Source of the DNA: Fistulifera solaris
Taxonomy: Eukaryota > Bacillariophyta > Bacillariophyceae > Naviculales > Stauroneidaceae
Assembly: GCA_030295235.1 (NCBI GenBank)
Contig: AP026138.1
Coordinates: 372,001 to 436,000, forward strand
DNA length: 64,000 bases
Direction: 5' to 3'
The position numbers were made by a program, and so were the translations under genes. Below, one piece after another: positions 38,169 to 39,902 of this stretch (position 1 is the first letter of the stretch; every line of letters starts with the position of its first letter). The notes beneath the pieces are model-generated. The model was not told the DNA's origin and ran no database searches. It was given only the letters and a program-made list of their open reading frames with translations.

Positions 38169-38783
38169 AATGGATTATTTTAACATGTGATGAATGAATC
38201 TGAAATGAAAGTTCTGTTTTTTTTATAAAAGACATAGTCTTCTACAAACGGACTGAAGATACTTGTATATTATTGTCTTTGTTTTTGGGTCGCGAGTGTT
38301 GCGTGTCATGGTCATTTTCTTTTTCAAACTTTAGCGCGAGCCGAAGGAACGCGACAGAAGCGTGGGTACTGTCTGGGAGAGTCTAAACGAATTGGAAATA
38401 GTAGAACCACGTCACAGCCAGTACATACCAGCGTTACAGACAAGGTAAATTGCGTACACTGCGAAGGACACTCGTTTGAGAGAAAGGTCAAACCTCTTGT
38501 TGGCGAGGAGCAGCCGGCGGCAGACAGCGCGCAGCGTGCAGCGCAACCGTGTATTTTCAAAAGCGCCAAAATGGAACTGCTGTGCAATTCTTGCGCAACT
38601 GTGAATCAAGTGGGTCTATTGTTAACCTCAACGGAGAATTCATTTAATCCGTGTCGAATGCTGTTGAAAGTCATATCCTCTTAAAGGTGAATTATTATTT
38701 GTGAAATGAAATAAGAATTCCAACGCAGCTGCATTCGCTTTTCCTTTATTCACATACACAACAACCAGCTGCGCGGGCATATC
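38169..38783. promoter_or_regulatory. Divergent promoter region, RRM and Smr-UIM genes
   Basis: About 615 bp separating two divergent genes. A T-rich stretch is at 38217-38225. No clear motif seen. Confidence 0.4.
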
Positions 38784-39902
38784 ATGAATCGTCATCTCGC
38801 CGAATTGGACTTGCACGGTCTCACCAGAGAAAAGGCGATCCGTGCCGTGACCGATTTCATGGAAGACAACAAACGAAAGCACGTGCGGATCATTACGGGT
38901 ACCGGAAGTCACTCGACGCACGGTCCGGTGTTACGCACGGCGGTCGAAAGTTTGTTGACCCGCCGGAAGATGCAGTTTCAAAAAGATAGTGCGGGGAGTT
39001 TTTTGGTGAATTGTGCGTCGGGAGACACCTTTTATCCTCCGGAATCACCCCAAGATACCAAATTGCTCGTGGTCGCATCGGCCGTTCCGCCGCCCCCGCC
39101 CATTCAACGCGCGGTCTCCATTCCGCAATCGTCGTACAGCATTCCTCCCACGCGGACCCGCCGCGTCGTGTCGACGACCCGGATTCGCAATGCCGATGGG
39201 AGTATGGAGGAAACCACGTCCATGGAAGAATTGATTACGAACCAAAACGAGGAGGAGCAAGTGTACGCGGAATGCACGTACGCCGATGAGGCGTATTCGG
39301 CTCCCTGGTTGACGGCCGCAAAGCAGACGGGAGAATCCGATTATTACAAAGCATTAGAGGGTTCGTTGGAAGATTATCGCTTGCAAACCAAGACGAGTGA
39401 GCAGGATTCGGACGAACTGGATAAGGTGTTGCAATTGTCGTTAAAAGCGCACGAGGAACAAGAAATGAGACGAAAAGAGCAAGAACGAGCCGAACTGGAA
39501 AAAGCGATTCAATTATCCGAAAAGATTGCCGCAGAACAAAGGCAAAGGAATGTGATGGAGACCGACGAAGACAAACTATTCCTTATGGCGCTGGAACGCT
39601 CGAAATCGGATACCCAATACAAGTCGGTCGCTGCAGCGGAAGAGGAAGACGAAGAATTGAAGCGGATACTGGAGCTTTCGAAACAAGAAGCACAAATGCT
39701 GCCTCTGGAGCAAGACGACGAAGAGGAATTGCTGCGGAAAATTCTCGAAGAATCCAAGGCCCTGTCACGCAGCGAAACTCTTCCCGATCGCGAACTGGAA
39801 GACGCGATTCGACGTGCGATGGAACAATCACTAGAAGAAGAACGAAAGCAACGGGAAGAAGAGGAATTGTTGCAACAAGTGTTACGAATGAGTATGAGAT
39901 AG
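38784..39902 (+). CDS. Smr-domain protein with ubiquitin-interacting motif array
   Basis: 372 residues, no intron. Residues 5-75 are an Smr (MutS2-related) domain with both hallmark motifs: LDLHGLT and ITGTGSHSTHGPVLR. Smr domains of the Cue2/NONU-1/N4BP2 group cleave mRNA at collided ribosomes. A Pro-rich linker follows. From about residue 205 to the end there are six or seven amphipathic acidic repeats of UIM type (hydrophobic-x-x-Ala/Leu-x-x-x-Ser), for example DELDKVLQLSLKAHEE, AELEKAIQLSEK, DEELKRILELSKQ, EEELLRKILEESK and LEDAIRRAMEQSLEEE. UIMs bind ubiquitin. Known collision nucleases recruit through CUE domains, so this would be a different way to the same end. The role is inferred. 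Confidence 0.82.
   Translation: MNRHLAELDLHGLTREKAIRAVTDFMEDNKRKHVRIITGTGSHSTHGPVLRTAVESLLTRRKMQFQKDSAGSFLVNCASGDTFYPPESPQDTKLLVVASAVPPPPPIQRAVSIPQSSYSIPPTRTRRVVSTTRIRNADGSMEETTSMEELITNQNEEEQVYAECTYADEAYSAPWLTAAKQTGESDYYKALEGSLEDYRLQTKTSEQDSDELDKVLQLSLKAHEEQEMRRKEQERAELEKAIQLSEKIAAEQRQRNVMETDEDKLFLMALERSKSDTQYKSVAAAEEEDEELKRILELSKQEAQMLPLEQDDEEELLRKILEESKALSRSETLPDRELEDAIRRAMEQSLEEERKQREEEELLQQVLRMSMR

Follow-up and report, generated by a model that had tools for sequence, protein, structure and literature searches.

The window analysed here is a stretch of 64,000 nucleotides of contig AP026138.1 (positions 372,001 to 436,000) from Fistulifera solaris, which parts of PMC5935921 describe as an allopolyploid diatom with 42 chromosome pairs. 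One gene in this window, hereafter the Smr-UIM gene, encodes a protein with an Smr domain in front and a series of helices resembling the ubiquitin-interacting motif (UIM) behind, and the locus raises the question whether a ubiquitin reader other than CUE could call an Smr nuclease to collided ribosomes in a diatom.

Organization of the Smr-UIM gene and its homeologue

The gene is one open frame on the plus strand, giving 372 amino acids from the first in-frame ATG, and the protein is laid out as an N-terminal Smr domain, a linker of about 100 residues and an acidic C-terminal tail of 190 residues. In the Pfam scan of the 372-residue protein, Smr was the sole family above cut-off. The features are as follows.

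38784..39902, plus strand: whole gene, single open frame of 372 amino acids; homeologue 88% identical, on the partner contig
38805..39011, plus strand: Smr domain, residues 8-76; Pfam match over 8-62, strands modelled to 76; best Foldseek match N4BP2 Smr (2d9i, E 6.4e-4)
38808..38816, plus strand: DxH motif, D9-L10-H11, from alignments; equals D348 and H350 tested in Cue2
38895..38915, plus strand: TGTGSHS, the GxG motif, residues 38-44; Thr where N4BP2 has Arg
39024..39329, plus strand: linker, residues 81-182; proline-rich at first, with a predicted beta hairpin (125-151) after it
39330..39899, plus strand: tail with the putative UIM array, residues 183-372; acidic, modelled as helices, motif statistics

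The leader of the gene contains a frame of 37 codons (38571-38684, plus strand), which the homeologue shares (L003 from about 1260), including a run of 33 identical bases; read by eye, it would be either an upstream ORF that is conserved or the gene's first exon. An upstream exon at this site was considered and rejected: the fitting acceptor AG at 38767-38768 (judged by eye) is absent from the homeologue, and for this reason the ATG at 38784 was retained as the presumed start.

The full protein was searched at E 0.01 against the genome, 61 contigs totalling 51.7 Mb, and matched only itself and one homeologue (C24, 88% identical). In this homeologue the architecture is preserved, and so are all eight UIM-like cores described below. 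When viral contigs were searched with the full protein and with the Smr domain alone, no relative was found; in one scan of bacterial and archaeal contigs, a single bacterial Smr protein (L011) matched, over residues 6-55.

The ratio dN/dS between the two homeologues was 0.17 (NG86) or 0.19 (YN00) for the whole gene, over 370 codons; the other 10 of the 380 alignment columns were gapped in one homeologue or the other and were excluded. By region, it was 0.15 and 0.10 for the Smr domain, 0.11 and 0.12 for the linker (101 codons), and 0.23 and 0.41 for the tail, which is thus the highest of the three. These values support purifying selection between the two homeologues, two copies being a thin sample. 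The modelled beta hairpin of the linker (residues 125-151, 39156-39236, plus strand) is strongly conserved between them, and it matched no Pfam family. The AlphaFold2 model, for which the two homeologues were the input, had a mean pLDDT of 64.9 and a pTM of 0.26, the ten-residue means ranging over 65-87 in the Smr domain, 29-74 in the linker and 49-91 in the tail.

The Smr domain and its DxH and GxG motifs

The Smr family (PF01713) was matched over residues 8-62 (E 5.1e-11, 43 bits against a cut-off of 25.7), and the two motifs that the sequence-only reading had assigned to a leading Smr domain, LDLHG and TGxGxHS, were both confirmed. The modelled elements are strand 6-9, helix 15-28, strand 33-37, helix 47-60 and strands 64-67 and 72-76. 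Among the best 50 of 377 Foldseek matches in PDB, ranks 1-6 were N4BP2 Smr chains (E 6.4e-4 to 6.7e-3, with a single value under 0.001; TM by target 0.58-0.79), and the seventh was SepF (E 0.079). In the PDB sequence search with this Smr domain N4BP2 was again at the top, with a weak E of 0.014, and a profile made from six Smr domains of the genome, including a MutS2-like one, gave MutS2 chains at best E 1.1e-5 and N4BP2 at best 7.4e-5. The NCBIfam scan gave the SmrB model alone, at 12.7 bits below its cut-off of 128.

LDLHG and TGTGSHS are identical in both homeologues, each of which has the D and H of DxH (D9, H11) and lacks the basic residue of GxG, Thr40 standing in its place. The middle residue of GxG is likewise Thr in the CCCH-Smr gene of this genome, Arg in N4BP2 and in the PPR-Smr-like L007, Lys in the C33 Smr and in the bacterial Smr, and Tyr in the MutS2-like gene. 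Both DxH and GxG are named as motifs at work in yeast in parts of PMC10897456, and from passages of this paper and PMC6598757 taken together we infer that R402 of Cue2 is the x of GxG. The combined change of D348 and H350 in Cue2 abolished cleavage, SMR-R402A gave no mapped cleavage in vitro, and R402K had no discernible effect in vivo (passages of PMC6598757). By alignment, two of the three residues tested in Cue2 appear to be present here and one is replaced: among the nucleolytic residues on which the sequence-only reading depended, DxH is in place and the Arg or Lys of GxG is not.

This replacement by Thr fits a protein that does not cut, that is, a collision adaptor whose Smr domain would bind collided ribosomes like B. 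subtilis MutS2 while its UIMs hold ubiquitinated ribosomes or recruit ubiquitinated factors; the DLR and HGxG residues of MutS2 are stated, in parts of PMC10897456, to serve binding and not cleavage. We consider such an adaptor unlikely, since DxH keeps both its D and its H, whereas the MutS2-like gene found here has DVR at this site, and since no single change at D348, H350 or R402 of Cue2 abolished the in vivo activity, as given in passages of PMC6598757.

The UIM-like tail

The tail is rich in acidic residues (54 Asp or Glu against 32 Lys or Arg in 190 residues), and residues 206-274 form a long continuous helix in the AlphaFold2 model. The core of a UIM has the pattern hydrophobic-x-x-Ala-hydrophobic-x-x-Ser. 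Using the relaxed form [LIVMFY]xx[AVIG][LIVM]xxS, we found eight cores, at residues 187, 212, 238, 266, 292, 317, 342 and 363, with Ala as the central residue in four, Val in two and Ile in two. The matches given for each core are those of the isolated helix.

39342..39365, plus strand: UIM-like core 1, YYKALEGS (Ala), by motif; no Pfam family
39417..39440, plus strand: UIM-like core 2, LDKVLQLS (Val), by motif; no Pfam family
39495..39518, plus strand: UIM-like core 3, LEKAIQLS (Ala), by motif; no Pfam family
39579..39602, plus strand: UIM-like core 4, FLMALERS (Ala), by motif; no Pfam family
39657..39680, plus strand: UIM-like core 5, LKRILELS (Ile); Pfam UIM 16.6 bits; first half of the RAP80-like tandem
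39732..39755, plus strand: UIM-like core 6, LRKILEES (Ile); RAP80_UIM 13.4 bits, sole family; second half of the RAP80-like tandem
39807..39830, plus strand: UIM-like core 7, IRRAMEQS (Ala); Pfam UIM 16.4 bits
39870..39893, plus strand: UIM-like core 8, LQQVLRMS (Val), at the C-terminal end; Pfam UIM 20.2 bits, E 4.9e-4 (second match CSTF_C, 18.9 bits)

Eight cores were reached in none of 20,000 composition shuffles of the tail (mean 0.11, maximum 3), nor were the four strict Ala cores in as many shuffles (mean 0.06, maximum 2). As a genomic background, we took the 149 stop-to-stop frames of at least 190 residues, in all six frames and not all of them genes, from the window plus 17 stretches of 10 kb (170 kb) out of 10 contigs. 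The densest 190-residue span held eight cores in the Smr-UIM frame, and for the other 148 frames two cores in 11, one in 46 and none in 91. Five of the seven steps from core to core are 25 or 26 residues long. A tandem duplication of the UIM unit at the DNA level was looked for and none was found.

The UIM profile (PF02809, cut-off 21 bits), by which the sequence-only reading was to be checked, did give scores, and all of them stay below its cut-off: the whole protein scored 9 bits (E 1.9), the isolated tail 14 bits (E 0.045), and isolated helix 8, the best of all, 20.2 bits. When the tail was scanned by itself, RAP80_UIM ranked first in Pfam (14.6 bits, E 0.028, cut-off 27.3) and UIM second. 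The tail of the homeologue scored 12.6 bits for UIM, and its whole protein gave no UIM up to E 10. The array of six to seven UIM-like helices claimed earlier is thus upheld as a predicted array, its number being eight by motif, only part of them with profile support. The genome search with PF02809 at E 0.001 gave zero matches and missed the Smr-UIM gene itself, so that it is uninformative on other UIM proteins.

Among the 32 core codons, 11 differ silently between the homeologues, one by replacement (Leu238 to Ile) and 20 are unchanged. Residues were changed at 1 of 32 core positions against 26 of 157 tail positions outside the cores, a marginal difference (Fisher p 0.053).

Similarity of the tail to RAP80

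The PDB sequence search with the tail gave seven matches, of which the first four were UIM constructs of RAP80/UIMC1 (E 0.0088 to 0.097), each placed on helices 5-6, and the remaining three were FtsH chains (E 2.4 or worse). The best was the RAP80 tandem UIM 2mkg (E 0.0088). The three RAP80 alignments printed are ungapped. In the alignment to the tandem UIM 16 of 41 residues are identical, and the cores are 25 residues apart in helices 5-6 and in the RAP80 tandem alike; in both of the aligned cores Ile replaces the central Ala. The local score of the tail against the RAP80 stretch was 82, a value reached in none of 4000 shuffles (mean 42.3, maximum 70), and elsewhere among the 149 frames the score was at most 46. 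The tail of the homeologue scored 70, equalled in one of 4000 shuffles of the window tail. Since the RAP80 stretch had been picked by the PDB search, this test checks composition and is no independent find. RAP80 is the only credible sequence match of the tail in PDB and, as an alignment, appears to be the best independent support for reading the tail as UIMs. Upon binding of K63-linked diubiquitin the two UIMs of RAP80 become one long helix, and Leu, Ala and Ser of the UIM make contacts (both from parts of PMC2951365).

RAP80 is a DNA-repair protein, and this resemblance would also suit a reading in which the array, like that of RAP80, guides the protein to K63-ubiquitinated chromatin, where the Smr domain nicks or binds DNA. 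The Smr domain of N4BP2, the nearest solved Smr fold, has been reported to nick or bind DNA in vitro, and the Smr domain here starts at residue 8, with no space ahead of it for a transit peptide, which makes a nuclear place possible. A repair role nevertheless seems quite unlikely to us: UIMs act in several pathways (parts of PMC2951365), and the RAP80 match therefore argues for the reading of ubiquitin rather than for repair; passages of PMC6598757 and PMC10897456 link DxH and GxG to cleavage of mRNA at ribosomes; and the protein has no further Pfam domain above cut-off.

Other Smr, CUE and quality-control genes of the genome

The Smr profile search gave nine matches in the genome: a pair called MutS2-like by eye on the basis of its frame, a PPR-Smr-like pair with PPR below cut-off, a CCCH-Smr pair, the Smr-UIM pair and one weak match on C33. 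Like these, the CUE, Pelota and E3 matches are mostly pairs on partner contigs. The C33 match (L020, 3213-3584, minus strand; 25.5 bits against 25.7) reads MDLHS and VGKGLRS, and is unpaired among the matches listed. The closest to the window Smr among the other aligned Smr domains of the genome is L007 (39% identity), the CCCH-Smr L005 showing 25%. Both L007 and the CCCH-Smr gene share with the Smr-UIM gene an Smr domain with DLH, and they differ in that their Smr is not N-terminal and that they have no Pfam UIM; L007 moreover has Arg in GxG.

The CCCH-Smr gene (L005/L021, C15/C16) joins CCCH-like fingers, which are sub-threshold (best zf_CCCH_4, 27 bits against 29, E 4.5e-6), to a C-terminal Smr domain. 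It lies at L021 3015-4325 (minus strand, C15), and the frame of its partner copy in L006 is shorter, with 132 residues around the Smr match. This gene could be the real counterpart of Cue2, leaving some other ubiquitin-linked RNA task to the Smr-UIM protein: its Smr is C-terminal, as in Cue2, and helices 132-176, before the fingers, could be UBA/CUE-like and a possible helical bundle, in a poor model with a mean pLDDT of 38 and blocks of 49-76 there. We regard this assignment as doubtful, because neither CUE, UBA nor DUF1771 was found in it up to E 10, in a search where HMMER filters drop most weak matches, no Pfam family was found in the 197-residue frame upstream, and its Smr domain gave no PDB chain by sequence up to E 10, while the window Smr matched N4BP2.

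CUE was found as one pair (C3/C4), apart from Smr, which we take by eye to be a Cue3/ASCC2 relative. The Smr-UIM protein has no CUE up to E 10 by Pfam, and no Smr-CUE fusion was seen in the exon-by-exon search of the genome, in which the best candidates alone were scored. DUF1771, which precedes Smr in N4BP2 and its plant relatives, was found neither in the Smr-UIM protein nor in the genome, the genome search having no positive control.

Pelota is encoded by two homeologues (E 9.9e-84 and 4.0e-83). In addition, a pair of E3 candidates with RING and zf-C2H2_13 (1.7e-13 and 8.6e-15) looks, by its domains, like Hel2/ZNF598. The RING_ZNF598 profile gave 17.2 and 18.2 bits on this pair, below its cut-off of 27, and one other RING model, zf-C3HC4_3, found the RING above cut-off; the genome search with RING_ZNF598 gave no match, controls included. 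The L018 frame of this pair (546 residues) ends before that of L019 (661 residues), which may reflect an intron or a frame difference.

Proposed function of the Smr-UIM protein

The combination of a putative RAP80-type reader, a long flexible linker and an N4BP2-like Smr domain makes a Cue2-like role the most likely. Our best explanation, advanced tentatively and with somewhat less than even confidence, is that the protein may be a collision nuclease of the Cue2 type that reads ubiquitin through UIMs rather than CUEs. An E3 of the Hel2/ZNF598 type would mark the small subunit of collided ribosomes with K63-linked ubiquitin; the C-terminal UIM array, chiefly the RAP80-like tandem of helices 5-6, would hold on to the chain through avidity; with about 100 residues of flexible linker, the N-terminal Smr domain would be able to reach the mRNA channel, where it would cut the mRNA, the fragments then being decayed. 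Ubiquitin binding, K63 preference, ribosome recruitment and cleavage are all predicted activities of the protein. In yeast, the CUE domains of Cue2 are the proposed means by which it binds K63 chains on eS7 (parts of PMC9841427). CUE domains 1 and 2 are dispensable for RQC-coupled cleavage according to the same parts of PMC9841427, and their ubiquitin binding is therefore not needed for every cut.

The pairing of activities that the sequence-only reading had likened to Cue2, with another ubiquitin module and order, accordingly holds in part. It is favoured by the N4BP2 fold, the conserved DxH, the eight cores with their RAP80-like tandem, purifying selection between the homeologues, Pelota and the Hel2-like E3, and counted against it are the Thr in GxG, the UIM scores below cut-off and the absence of Ala from four of the eight cores, both tandem cores included. 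We count against it also the weaker RAP80 score of the homeologue, the marginal conservation of the cores, the high dN/dS of the tail, the preference of the six-Smr profile for MutS2, the dispensability of CUE 1 and 2 in yeast and the presence of the CCCH-Smr gene. That the tail is merely an acidic, leucine-rich helical repeat resembling UIMs, and no ubiquitin reader, is very improbable: this would suit the sub-cut-off UIM scores in every test, the four cores without Ala and the continuous helix 206-274, but the shuffles never attained the core count or the RAP80 score, the 148 other frames stay far below, UIM is the top family for three of the eight isolated helices, and RAP80_UIM is the sole match of a fourth.

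Beyond the Cue2-like nuclease with UIMs as reader, a bolder version, to which we give a low probability, is that a ubiquitin-guided mRNA nuclease might have arisen independently of the CUE-Smr family, with Smr in front and a UIM ruler behind. Steps of 25 or 26 residues are about seven alpha-helical turns, and neighbouring UIMs could therefore share one helix face. If such a ruler exists, its UIMs could clasp successive ubiquitins of a K63 chain, and cutting would depend on the chain length on collided ribosomes.

The domains themselves are known, and their combination was not found described in the open-licence PubMed Central literature: no description of an Smr domain with a UIM turned up there, the one paper listed for diatoms and the Smr domain is a review of dinoflagellate RNA-binding proteins, and none of the 8 stramenopile papers listed, out of 2,551, contains 'Smr domain'. 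Recognition of collided ribosomes in algae seems hardly studied, no diatom paper on it being found by title among the open-licence PubMed Central papers listed. If the Smr domain was kept and the ubiquitin reader swapped, the principle that a ubiquitin mark calls a nuclease would either predate the CUE-Smr family or have arisen more often than that family suggests. The homeologous gene pair named here is a knockout target for no-go decay in an alga, Cas9 RNP editing having been reported for Fistulifera solaris, and the natural array of eight putative UIMs with RAP80-like spacing is a candidate binder of K63 chains.

Comparison with known systems

With RAP80 (UIMC1) the protein shares the ungapped alignment of helices 5-6 to the tandem UIM, with its identities and its spacing of 25; it differs in having eight cores where RAP80 has two, in Ile for Ala in both aligned cores, and in the Smr domain joined to the array. 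The bacterial collision factors SmrB (E. coli) and MutS2 (B. subtilis) have the Smr domain in common with it, and the D and H of DxH are as in SmrB; unlike here, SmrB and MutS2 are recruited via an N-terminal hook or a KOW domain, as described in parts of PMC10897456. The CUE-Smr proteins of no-go decay, Cue2 (yeast), NONU-1 (C. elegans) and N4BP2 (animals), share with it the Smr domain, N4BP2 being nearest in fold, and DxH. They also carry ubiquitin-binding modules in the same chain, as the Smr-UIM protein putatively does, in a genome with a Hel2-like E3 and Pelota. In contrast to these proteins, the Smr-UIM protein has a UIM-like array in place of CUE/UBA, its Smr domain is N-terminal and not C-terminal, DUF1771 is absent, and Thr stands in GxG.
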